Source: Microcaldota archaeon
GTDB lineage: Archaea; Micrarchaeota; Micrarchaeia; Micrarchaeales; Micrarchaeaceae
Assembly: GCA_021816895.1 (NCBI GenBank)
Contig: JAKAWW010000001.1
Span: forward strand, 186,001-250,000
Direction of reading: 5' to 3'
DNA: 64,000 nt
The notes under the pieces: model-generated
Seen by the model: only the letters and a program-made list of their open reading frames with translations
Told to the model about the DNA's origin: nothing
The model's database searches: none
Made by a program: the position numbers and the translations under genes
Part shown: one piece after another, positions 11,225 through 43,773 of the stretch
Position numbering within the stretch: position 1 is the stretch's first letter
Layout: every line of letters begins with the position of its first letter

Positions 11225-11328
11225 GCGGGGGTGGCAGAGCATGGCCAAATGCGCAGGACTGAGGTGCACAAAAGCTTGGAACTCCTGTGTCTTTAGGGAC
11301 TGCGTGAGTTCAAATCTCACCCCCCGCA
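11225..11328 (+). tRNA. tRNA-Leu(GAG) with 17-nt intron
   Basis: Acceptor stem GCGGGGG (11225-11231) pairs with CCCCCGC (11321-11327), discriminator A at 11328, no encoded CCA. D stem is GCA/TGC, anticodon stem CAGGA (11254-11258)/TCCTG (11283-11287), anticodon GAG at 11261-11263, a long variable arm GTC..GAC as expected for Leu, and T arm GTGAG-TTCAAAT-CTCAC. The anticodon loop is split after position 37 by 11265-11281. A bulge-helix-bulge can be drawn: CTGA pairs with TTGG (two wobbles), bulges GG^T and AA^C, inner helix GC/GC. A tRNA-Leu upstream of L18e is ancestral archaeal gene order. Confidence 0.95.
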
Positions 11329-12701: not shown

Positions 12702-12902
12702 ATGATGATGCCGGTCAGGTGCTTCAGCTGCGGAGCTGTGGTAGCCGACAAATGGGAAGAATACGACAGGAGAGTAAACAAGAGCAACGAAGATCCAGGG
12801 AAGGTTCTCGATGACCTGGGTGTCAAGAGGTTCTGCTGCAGGCGCATGTTCCTCGGCAACCTCGAGCTCATCGATGAGTTCATGCCCATAGGCAGGCAGT
12901 AA
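12702..12902 (+). CDS. rpoN: DNA-directed RNA polymerase subunit N (Rpo10)
   Basis: 66 residues; homologue of RPB10. The zinc-binding CFSCG near the N-terminus and [11 protein letters not shown] give the CX2C...CC pattern of the family. It binds subunits D and L to stabilise the assembly platform. Start at 12702 because GGTGAT (12692-12697) is four bases upstream; two further in-frame ATGs follow immediately. In many archaea rpoK follows here; in this genome tRNA-Pro follows instead. Confidence 0.95.
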
Positions 12903-12912
12903 TTTATATATA
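12902..12912 (+). promoter_or_regulatory. TATA box for tRNA-Pro
   Basis: The sequence TTTATATATAT-like run directly after the rpoN stop is centred about 30 bases before the tRNA 5' end, the normal archaeal TATA distance plus a short leader. The tRNA-Pro and the rps2 gene could therefore be transcribed from here independently of the upstream operon. Confidence 0.5.
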
Positions 12913-12937
12913 TGCACAGGGAATTATGTTAATGTTT

Positions 12938-13040
12938 GGGGCCGTCTGCTAGCCTGGTAGGCTTCCAGCTTGGGGTGCTGGCGACCCGAGAAACTTTCGG
13001 GAATTCAAATGCATTAAGGCTGAAAATCTCGGCGGCCCCA
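12938..13040 (+). tRNA. tRNA-Pro(GGG) with two introns in the T arm
   Basis: Acceptor GGGGCCG (12938-12944)/CGGCCCC (13033-13039), discriminator A 13040. Anticodon stem CCAGC/GCTGG, anticodon GGG at 12972-12974 with no intron in that loop. The T stem CCGAG (12986-12990) pairs with CTCGG (13028-13032), but 37 bases lie between them instead of seven. Removing 12991-13003 (13 nt, site 53/54) and 13010-13026 (17 nt, site 59/60) leaves a perfect TTCAAAT loop. Each cut can be drawn as a bulge-helix-bulge: CCCG/CGGG with bulges AG^A and AA^T for the first, TTCA/TGAA with bulges AA^T and AA^T for the second. The rest of the cloverleaf is normal. Confidence 0.9.
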
Positions 13041-13051
13041 AAGGTGTTAAA

Positions 13052-13669
13052 ATGGAAGAGCAATTATTGGCAAACCAGAACGATTACCTAGAGGCAGGGA
13101 TACACATAGCCACGAAAGTGAAAACGCCGGGCATGAAAAAGTTTATCTACAAAGTAAGGGACGACGGTTTGTACCTGCTTGATCTTAAAACCATAGATTC
13201 GCGCATAAGGGTAGCTGCATCAATGCTTGCAAGATACGATCCAAAGGATATAGTGGTGACGGCTTCAAGAATATATGCGATAGTGGCGGCACAGAAGTTT
13301 GCAGAGATAATAGGTGCACAATTCATAAAGGGCAGGGTAACTCCTGGCATATTCACAAACCCGAACAGGCCCGATTTCATGGAGCCCAAGCTTATATTCA
13401 TAAGCGACTCCAGGAACGAAAAGCAGGCGGTCAAGGAAGCCAGCAAAAGCAACATGCCCATAATCGCTCTGAGTGACACGGACAACTCTACGAAATACAT
13501 AGATCTGATAATACCTGTGAACAACCGCGGCAGGAAATCATTGGCGTTTGTATATTTCCTTCTGGCGAGGGAAGTGCTTAAGGAAAAGGGTGCCATAAAG
13601 TCAAACGAGGAATTTAAGTACCAGGTTAGCGATTTTGAAGCCAAGATGGAAACGAAGGCAAAGCTCTAA
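13052..13669 (+). CDS. rps2: Small-subunit ribosomal protein S2 (uS2)
   Basis: 205 residues, archaeal-type uS2. Diagnostic segments: YLEAGIHIATKVKTPGMKKFIY, RYDPKDIVVTASRIYA, FIKGRVTPGIFTNP and SDTDNSTKYIDLIIPVNNRG. The start has AAAGGTG five bases upstream, lying directly after tRNA-Pro. It closes the transcription/translation operon. The enolase gene often found beside it in other archaea is absent. Confidence 0.95.
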   Translation: MEEQLLANQNDYLEAGIHIATKVKTPGMKKFIYKVRDDGLYLLDLKTIDSRIRVAASMLARYDPKDIVVTASRIYAIVAAQKFAEIIGAQFIKGRVTPGIFTNPNRPDFMEPKLIFISDSRNEKQAVKEASKSNMPIIALSDTDNSTKYIDLIIPVNNRGRKSLAFVYFLLAREVLKEKGAIKSNEEFKYQVSDFEAKMETKAKL

Positions 13670-14589: not shown

Positions 14590-14650
14590 TAGTAGATATC
14601 AAAAACTTAATAAATAGATACTGTCTATTATAGAGTAAGCAGGGAATGTG

Positions 14651-16798
14651 ATGAAGCAGCAGTCTGCCTTAGAGTTTATTATTACCTATTCGTGGGCACT
14701 AATCATAATAGCGCTCTTCGTCGCAAGCGTCTTTGTGCTCAGCGGCTACAAGGCGCCCAGTTATTACCTCTCTTCTTCGTGCTACATAGAACCGCTGCTC
14801 CCTTGCGTGCAGTCCATAGTAACATACAACATATCAGCGCCGCTGAGATTTGCGCTGGTGTTCAAAAACACGCTAGGCACAGCAATGTTCATACCGCAGA
14901 ATGGCATAAACATAACAGTTTCAAATATAGGTGCAGCAGGCACAAGCAGCTATGTTGGCAACTGCTATCCAAAGTTCGTGCCTTCCGGAACCGAGGCATT
15001 GTGCAATGTAGGCATACCAGGCAGCGTTAAACCTGGAGTGGGCACCCAGGTAAGCATACCATTTACGTTGAGCTACAATCTCTGCAGCGGGCCAAATTCA
15101 AAGACATGCCAAAGCGCATTATACAAAACCACAGGCACAGCAACTCAGCTTGTTGCACCGTCTTCAATAAGCATCTACTCGCTGAGCATGAATTCCTCTA
15201 CAACTGGAGCATATATAGAAGTCAATGGAGTCGCCTATGCTACAAACAGCACGGCATTCTTTGCAAGCAACAAATACACGCTTTTTGCTAAGCCTCCTGC
15301 TGGATACGCATTCACAGCATGGTCAATTTCATCTGCAAGTTCATCTTTGTCAAGCAGCACATCGCAGACCACTACCTTGACACTTTCATCAAACGCAACA
15401 GTTGTCGCAAGTTTTGTAACATCTGTAACGTCAACAAGCACTTCAACTACAACTAGCACTACTGCTACCTCAACATCAACAACCAGCACATCAACATCAA
15501 CAACATCAACTTCAACCTCAACAACCTCCACCAGCACATCAACAACAAGCACAACAACTTCTACAACCAGCACATCAACATCAACAACATCGACTTCAAC
15601 CTCAACAACCTCCACCAGCACATCAACAACCAGCACAACCACCTCTACAACCAGCACATCAACATCAACAACATCGACTTCAACCTCAACAACCTCCACC
15701 AGCACCTCTACAACAAGCACAACCACCTCTACAACCAGCACATCAACCTCAACAACATCGACTTCAACCTCAACAACCTCCACCAGCACATCAACAACCA
15801 GCACAACAACCTCTACAACAACCAGCACAACAACCTCTACAACAACCAGCACAACAACCTCTACAACAACCAGCACAACAACTTCTACAAGTACTGTTTA
15901 CTATGTTCCAATTACGTTAACCAATAACCAAGGATCTGCTACTCCCACTCCATTCCAGCAGATGATAGTTGCAGATAGCGGCTCTTATTCGGGCTATGAG
16001 CAGAGCGGCTTGCAGAATGTTGAGTTTACAACTGCTCCCAATGCTCAGGGCAGCGTTCTGCAGACATGGATCGAGGCAAATGCAAGCAGCACTTCTACCT
16101 ATACTATATACTGGGTAAATCTTCCAAGTGGGATAGGTGCTAGCAGCAGCGTGACAATATACATGAACTTCATGCCTGGTAGTGTTATGTCAAGTGTTGG
16201 CCCTACAGGAGAAGCCCCACAACTGAGCCCTACATACGCGCAATACGATAATGGTGCATATGTATTTAATGTGTATCAGAATTTTGCAGGAACCTCATGC
16301 CCTTCAGGTTGGACATGTCAGAGTGGCACGACCATAAGCAATGGTGCAACATTAGATAATGCTAATGTCACTTCAAATAACCAGTATTACCCCCAGGTAT
16401 TGGATGCGTATGTGCTGAGCTCAAATTCCAATTTGAAAGGAGAGCAAATAGACTACGTAATAAACTATTTAAACGTTGCCTTTAATCTAAATCAGCCTTA
16501 TTGGGGGCATGGCAATATCGGTAGTGAGTATGGTGGCACTTACACTGTTAATGCAGGCCCACCAGAGTATACAGGCTCATATATCCAATCACTAGGATGG
16601 AGCGGCAGTACCTTATACTGGTGGTACGACTATACCAATGAGTATACAGAAACTACAAGCCTATCCGCTTCTTCTACGTACCATCTTCAAATGCGCGCAT
16701 GGCCTTCCGGCTATTCCGCATCCATACAGTGGCTCCGCACCCGTGCATTTCCACCTAGCGGGATAATGCCTAGTGTAAGTTTTGGTGCATTGAGTTAA
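14651..16798 (+). CDS. Surface protein: class III signal peptide, Ser/Thr repeat stalk, DUF2341-like domain
   Basis: About 715 residues. The N-terminus KQQSALEFIITYSWALIII is an archaeal type IV pilin-like (class III) signal: charged start, cleavage region before QSALEF, then one hydrophobic helix. Residues about 30-185 form a beta-rich domain with cysteine pairs; about 200-255 resemble a bacterial-repeat-like domain; about 260-415 is almost pure Ser/Thr, a probable O-glycosylated stalk; the C-terminal 300 residues (YVPITLTNNQGSATP onward) resemble DUF2341 carbohydrate-binding-like domains. A matching prepilin peptidase is at 27810. GTG at 14648 is an alternative start. It likely projects from the cell as an adhesin or pilus component. 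Confidence 0.8.
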   Translation: MKQQSALEFIITYSWALIIIALFVASVFVLSGYKAPSYYLSSSCYIEPLLPCVQSIVTYNISAPLRFALVFKNTLGTAMFIPQNGINITVSNIGAAGTSSYVGNCYPKFVPSGTEALCNVGIPGSVKPGVGTQVSIPFTLSYNLCSGPNSKTCQSALYKTTGTATQLVAPSSISIYSLSMNSSTTGAYIEVNGVAYATNSTAFFASNKYTLFAKPPAGYAFTAWSISSASSSLSSSTSQTTTLTLSSNATVVASFVTSVTSTSTSTTTSTTATSTSTTSTSTSTTSTSTSTTSTSTSTTSTTTSTTSTSTSTTSTSTSTTSTSTSTTSTTTSTTSTSTSTTSTSTSTTSTSTSTTSTTTSTTSTSTSTTSTSTSTTSTSTSTTSTTTSTTTSTTTSTTTSTTTSTTTSTTTSTSTVYYVPITLTNNQGSATPTPFQQMIVADSGSYSGYEQSGLQNVEFTTAPNAQGSVLQTWIEANASSTSTYTIYWVNLPSGIGASSSVTIYMNFMPGSVMSSVGPTGEAPQLSPTYAQYDNGAYVFNVYQNFAGTSCPSGWTCQSGTTISNGATLDNANVTSNNQYYPQVLDAYVLSSNSNLKGEQIDYVINYLNVAFNLNQPYWGHGNIGSEYGGTYTVNAGPPEYTGSYIQSLGWSGSTLYWWYDYTNEYTETTSLSASSTYHLQMRAWPSGYSASIQWLRTRAFPPSGIMPSVSFGALS
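15479..15814 (+). repeat. Four 84-bp tandem repeats in the Ser/Thr stalk
   Basis: Four copies begin at 15479, 15563, 15647 and 15731, each starting ACAACCAGCACATCAAC. They are near-identical at DNA level, with changes mostly at third positions, and each codes for 28 residues built from four seven-residue Thr/Ser units. Copy number probably varies by slippage or recombination, which would change stalk length. Confidence 0.9.
15815..15886 (+). repeat. Three 24-bp tandem repeats ending the stalk
   Basis: Copies start at 15815, 15839 and 15863, each ACAACAACCAGCACAACAAC plus four bases, coding for TTTSTTTS units. They follow directly on the 84-bp array and look like a separate later expansion of its last part. 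Confidence 0.88.
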
Positions 16799-43672: not shown

Positions 43673-43773
43673 TCCCGTTGGGGTGAGTCGAACACCCAAC
43701 CTGCCGGTATCTGACAGTCTTATGCCAGTGCTGCAAACTACAGCCGGCCGCTCTGCCATTGAGCTACAACGGG
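43673..43773 (-). tRNA. tRNA-Tyr(GTA) with 29-nt intron
   Basis: Minus strand: acceptor CCCGTTG/CAACGGG, with the C1-G72 pair that marks archaeal tRNA-Tyr, discriminator A at 43673. D stem GCTC/GAGC, anticodon stem GCCGG/CCGGC, anticodon GTA at 43739-43741, T arm GGGTG-TTCGACT-CACCC. The anticodon loop is interrupted after position 37 by 43709-43737. The bulge-helix-bulge is relaxed: CTG pairs with CAG but the fourth pair is a mismatch. Confidence 0.92.

Follow-up and report, generated by a model that had tools for sequence, protein, structure and literature searches.

Two short introns within the T loop of a tRNA-Pro(GGG) gene of a Micrarchaeota archaeon

The locus and the anatomy of the gene

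The window analyzed here is a stretch of 64,000 nucleotides from an archaeal genome that consists of one contig of 928,770 bases. At positions 12938-13040 it holds a tRNA-Pro(GGG) gene, the T loop of which, as read from the sequence, is interrupted twice, by introns of 13 and 17 nt. The gene is part of a cluster with the order L18e-L13-S9-RpoN-tRNA-S2, the same order being found at two loci of a sister family (L128 and L138), and its neighbors on the two sides are read from their translations as RpoN and ribosomal protein S2. The features are as follows.

12702..12902, + strand: upstream neighbor, presumably RpoN (from its translation)
12903..12913, + strand: AT-rich and TATA-like, lying some 25-35 bases before the tRNA; from its bases, a possible promoter of the tRNA's own
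12938..12990, + strand: exon 1, with the acceptor 5' strand, D arm, anticodon arm (GGG), variable loop and T stem 5' strand (12986-12990)
12991..13003, + strand: intron 1, 13 nt, AAACTTTCGGGAA, at tRNA position 53/54; missing from intronless orthologues and from those with the 59/60 intron only
13004..13009, + strand: exon 2, TTCAAA (six bases, positions 54-59 of the T loop), a sequence shared by all double-intron orthologues
13010..13026, + strand: intron 2, 17 nt, TGCATTAAGGCTGAAAA, at tRNA position 59/60; missing from intronless orthologues and from those with the 53/54 intron only
13027..13040, + strand: exon 3, with T60, T stem 3' strand (13028-13032), acceptor 3' strand (13033-13039) and discriminator A (13040)
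13052..13669, + strand: downstream neighbor, presumably ribosomal protein S2 (from its translation)

The inserts are laid out in the T loop as GAG-AAACTTTCGGGAA-TTCAAA-TGCATTAAGGCTGAAAA-TCTCGG. On rereading of the window, the gene and intron coordinates and sequences of the first-pass annotation were found to be correct, and its claim that loss of 13 and 17 nt restores a normal TTCAAAT loop was borne out. Removal of both introns yields a 73-nt tRNA with discriminator A73 and the anticodon loop TTGGGGT (GGG), which matches an intronless orthologue (G003) in one piece, over 73/73 positions and with 96% identity; the intact tRNA-Pro(CGG) encoded in this genome (L026) has exactly the spliced T arm, CCGAG-TTCAAAT-CTCGG. 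In intronless orthologues the TTCAAA of exon 2 indeed adjoins the T stem without a break, and exon 1 is 100% identical in several relatives. From the window bases alone the right boundary of intron 2 is ambiguous, T13010 being the same base as T13027, and relatives in which this intron starts with A or G fix it at 59/60. The 3' ends of the introns (CGGGAA in intron 1 and TGAAAA in intron 2) are conserved among relatives, while their interiors are variable. A one-intron reading was dropped, since no deletion of one contiguous stretch was found to give a normal T loop, and relatives with a single intron carry only one insert. Inserts of 13 and 17 nt, with no Rfam intron match within the window, do not have the catalytic core or reading frame of group I or mobile introns.

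In its unspliced form the gene was missed by both ARAGORN and Rfam RF00005, and an annotation resting on such tools would list tRNA-Pro(GGG) as absent. The only other proline tRNAs found in the genome were Pro(CGG) and Pro(TGG). A second intact tRNA-Pro(GGG), which according to the first-pass annotation would make this copy a pseudogene, was searched for in the genome with the spliced tRNA form, and none was found. CCC and CCT account for 13 of the 34 proline codons in the neighboring genes.

Several other features were observed in passing. Two more intron-containing tRNA genes lie in the window, at 11225-11328 and 43673-43773; both were found by Rfam and missed by ARAGORN. A 716-aa frame at 14648-16798 carries long Ser/Thr repeats (STSTTST...) and likely encodes a cell surface protein. 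In the same genome, no fewer than six further tRNA genes (L033, L035, L036, L037, L038 and L039; by eye Leu, three Arg, Lys and Ala) have a single T-loop intron at about 58/59 or 59/60, with the same logic of exon-intron helices (e.g., TCCG/CGGA in L037). ARAGORN assigns one gene (L003, G000:C1:90559-90633) to tRNA-Ile with the anticodon TAT, which is reported to be rare in archaea. Two near-identical tRNA-Gln(CTG) genes lie about 1.3 kb apart (L025, G000:C1:411558-411630, and L014, 412942-413014); changes in one T-stem strand of L025 break pairs, and this copy may be decaying.

Introns and anticodon at the orthologous locus

The spliced tRNA served as the query against 119 genomes, comprising the window's own and its relatives, and orthologues were parsed from 99 genomes of the same order of Micrarchaeota, 55 of the same family (family 1) and 44 of a sister family (family 2). 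Both introns were present in 38 of the 99, only the 59/60 intron in 53, only the 53/54 intron in five, and neither in three. In family 1 the corresponding numbers were 28, 20, four and three; in family 2, ten genomes had both, 33 the 59/60 intron only, and one the 53/54 intron only. The inserts were thus independently present or absent, each occurring without the other in relatives, and always at 53/54 and 59/60. This four-state pattern, together with the match to the intronless G003, shows that the arrangement is not due to chance, and the comparison confirms the two inserts as genuine introns at one orthologous tRNA locus. One orthologue (G011) shows a compensatory change in the T stem (TCGAG/CTCGA). 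The earlier view that introns so closely paired are extreme did not hold up, as the same pair recurs in those 38 genomes, and first introns go down to 11 nt.

When the GTDB species set was independently scanned for the pattern, the double arrangement turned up on 39 contigs, of which nearly all are titled Micrarchaeota. Three were titled Marsarchaeota; these titles look like depositors' labels, because the tRNA of one such contig (L127) is the same as that of a family-2 genome (G073, L180) and the tRNA of another (L130) is the same as that of a family-1 genome (G039). A quick protein tree built from S9, RpoN and S2, with 78 rows enriched for double-intron genomes and several weak forks, required at least ten changes for intron 1, at least three for intron 2, and one for the anticodon.

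That single anticodon change concerns family 2, in which the slot S9-RpoN-tRNA-S2 is occupied by an orthologous tRNA-Pro with the anticodon AGG (A34) in 44/44 parsed genomes (L157-L186, L207-L220), the anticodon loop being TTAGGGA or CTAGGGC. The family-2 loci with neighbors are as follows.

L128:3456-3499 and L138:4792-4832, with flanks: tRNA-Pro(AGG) slot

A search of 23 family-2 genomes with one pattern found no GGG-type anticodon arm. tRNAs with A34 are nearly absent from archaea (PMC6000648). Of 12 family-2 genomes, only three yielded genes of the PF00383 (cytidine/adenosine-deaminase) family, so that the gene content gives no clear sign of a dedicated A34 deaminase belonging to it.

Splice motifs, splicing enzymes and order of removal

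The motifs were read with cuts placed between bulge bases 2 and 3, and counted over distinct sequences. The strands of the central helices in the window are as follows.

12985..12988, + strand: intron-1 motif, central helix (4 bp), 5' strand CCCG, partner 12998-13001
12998..13001, + strand: intron-1 motif, central helix, 3' strand CGGG, with the 3' bulge at 13002-13004
13004..13007, + strand: intron-2 motif, central helix (4 bp), 5' strand TTCA, partner TGAA
13021..13024, + strand: intron-2 motif, central helix, 3' strand TGAA, with the 3' bulge at 13025-13027

A 4-bp exon-intron central helix with all four pairs, flanked by two 3-base bulges as in a bulge-helix-bulge (BHB), was found in 44 of 45 distinct first introns (11-35 nt) and 89 of 90 distinct second introns (11-32 nt). 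Because the exon partners hardly vary, what this pattern shows is that the intron ends are conserved, and not that the strands covary. An inner helix of at least 3 bp was found in 12/45 first introns, where shuffles would give 1.1, and in 37/90 second introns (2.9 expected), and all 14 distinct second introns of 21 nt keep 5/5 inner pairs by compensatory changes (e.g., TAAGC/GCTTA, TGGGC/GCCCA, AGCAG/CTGCT); covariation is thus present in the inner helices.

In the window copy, intron 1 has its 4-bp central helix, an outer helix of 2 bp and an inner helix of about 1 bp, and in the minimum-free-energy fold its bases form a hairpin in which pairing continues across the 5' bulge. Intron 2 has a 2-bp inner helix, and acquires a 5-bp outer helix only once intron 1 is out. 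Bases 13004-13006 are common to both motifs, and in that of intron 1 they provide the 3' bulge base and the 2-bp outer helix. The window copy does not have both flanking helices of the strict form (hBHBh'), which some relatives do have, and its motifs, classified by pairing, are of the relaxed class, intron 1 by the usual classes. The proposal that both junctions fit BHB geometry was therefore upheld as to the BHB-type motifs at 53/54 and 59/60, with central helices of 4/4 pairs, but needs amendment at the first junction, which is relaxed and has essentially no inner helix.

The sole splicing-endonuclease gene found in the genome encodes 387 aa and matches the ARMAN-2 EndA (4FZ2) over residues 3-387 of 387 (E 6e-166). 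It keeps Y160, K161, Y236, H251 and K282 at positions identical to 4FZ2, residues of known roles (PMC6379350, PMC12397907). With this full-length match, the catalytic triad and the ARMAN-specific loop (Y160/K161), the enzyme is by homology of the ARMAN-2, or epsilon-2 (three-unit), type, and a three-unit endonuclease of the kind that the first-pass annotation ascribed to ARMAN-type archaea is indeed encoded in the same genome. Cleavage of relaxed motifs, at a variety of positions in the tRNA, has been reported for the epsilon-2 type (PMC4033280; relaxed motifs also in PMC12397907). A gene for the RtcB ligase is also present (E 1e-165).

We consider it very probable, on these comparative and genomic data, that the locus is a functional, and probably essential, tRNA-Pro(GGG) gene with two BHB-type introns that would be cut by the epsilon-2 endonuclease and its exons joined. 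A decayed pseudogene with two chance insertions, CCC and CCU being read by another tRNA, would account for the failure of standard tRNA finders; it is nonetheless highly improbable, as no other Pro(GGG) was found in the genome, the exons pair perfectly and differ little among relatives, and 38 genomes retain both insertion points and the motif ends despite divergent intron interiors. It is to be noted that the T stem can also pair across the 37-nt loop of the unspliced form (probability 0.82), as would suit a mature tRNA that retains one or both inserts as an enlarged T arm. The absence of one or both inserts from this locus in relatives, insert lengths ranging from 11 to 35 nt, and the conserved splice motifs make such retention equally hard to credit. 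Both readings were rejected on the comparative data.

As regards the order of removal, the outer helix of the intron-2 motif has 0 bp before, and the full 5-bp T stem after, removal of intron 1 in 40/40 distinct double-intron genes. Because this motif is without an outer helix until intron 1 is gone, the pairing suggests that intron 1 leaves first. Whole-precursor folding gave misfolded cloverleaves, and only local T-arm partition-function folding was used. In the window precursor so folded, the T stem of probability 0.82 competes with the intron-1 helix (0.17), and the idea that splicing has to precede formation of the T arm was overstated. Removal of intron 1 raised the intron-2 helix from 0.09 to 0.38, and removal of intron 2 raised the intron-1 helix from 0.17 to 0.98. 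Introns spliced in either order or simultaneously would agree with this mutual effect and with an enzyme that accepts relaxed motifs (PMC4033280, PMC12397907); against them stand the missing outer helix and the double use of bases 13004-13006, and we judge such an absence of hierarchy possible but rather doubtful. Local folding does not settle the order, and of the initial claim that intron 1 is cut before or together with intron 2, the dependence of the intron-2 outer helix on removal of intron 1 stands, whereas a fixed order does not follow from folding. That the overlapping motifs, through the shared six-base exon, force an obligatory order with intron 1 first, in an arrangement gained and lost repeatedly (at least ten changes of the first intron within one order), is a proposal that we make tentatively, at somewhat less than even likelihood.

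We infer actual splicing, its order and ligation by RtcB from the genes and motifs, and the preferred course, with intron 1 first, would be as follows. After transcription, the epsilon-2 endonuclease would cut each intron at the two 3-base bulges that flank its 4-bp exon-intron helix. Intron 1, with its relaxed CCCG/CGGG motif, would most likely be removed first, which would place T-stem base 53 beside TTCA and let the T stem serve the intron-2 motif (TTCA/TGAA) as its outer helix. This motif would then be cut, leaving a normal T loop, and the exons would be joined, most likely by RtcB.

Comparison with known systems

Positions 53/54 and 59/60 are among the non-canonical intron sites of archaea, as the first-pass annotation had stated, and several introns per gene are known (PMC4090602). 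The gain of a tRNA intron at one locus within a population has been described (PMC3293823). The natural series found here, with neither, either or both introns at one locus in close relatives, is suited to the study of tRNA-intron gain and loss, and also to testing ordered splicing by the epsilon-2 endonuclease. A literature search, which covered sources other than the primary ARMAN-2 and Thermoproteales multi-intron papers, found no description of the Micrarchaeota gene or its six-base exon.

The closest known systems are multi-intron genes. Those of Thermoproteales likewise have several BHB introns per tRNA gene, some in the T arm, e.g., the Pyrobaculum islandicum tRNA-Pro(UGG) with introns at 25/26, 37/38 and 56/57 (PMC4090602). 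There, however, the introns lie in different arms, whereas both introns of the window gene are in one loop, six bases apart; the window gene also has no 37/38 intron and belongs to another phylum. ARMAN-1 and ARMAN-2, listed among archaea with multiple-intron tRNAs (PMC4033280), are close kin and share the endonuclease type with the Y160/K161 loop (PMC12397907, PDB 4FZ2). tRNAscan-SE 2.0 is designed to deal iteratively with introns in such proximity that the motif of one can form only after the other is gone (PMC8450103); the passages on this name no case, whereas in the window gene the shared six bases and the conservation over many species can be seen. Archaeal tRNAs with multiple introns, even introns too close to fold together, have thus already been published, and the window gene adds one example.
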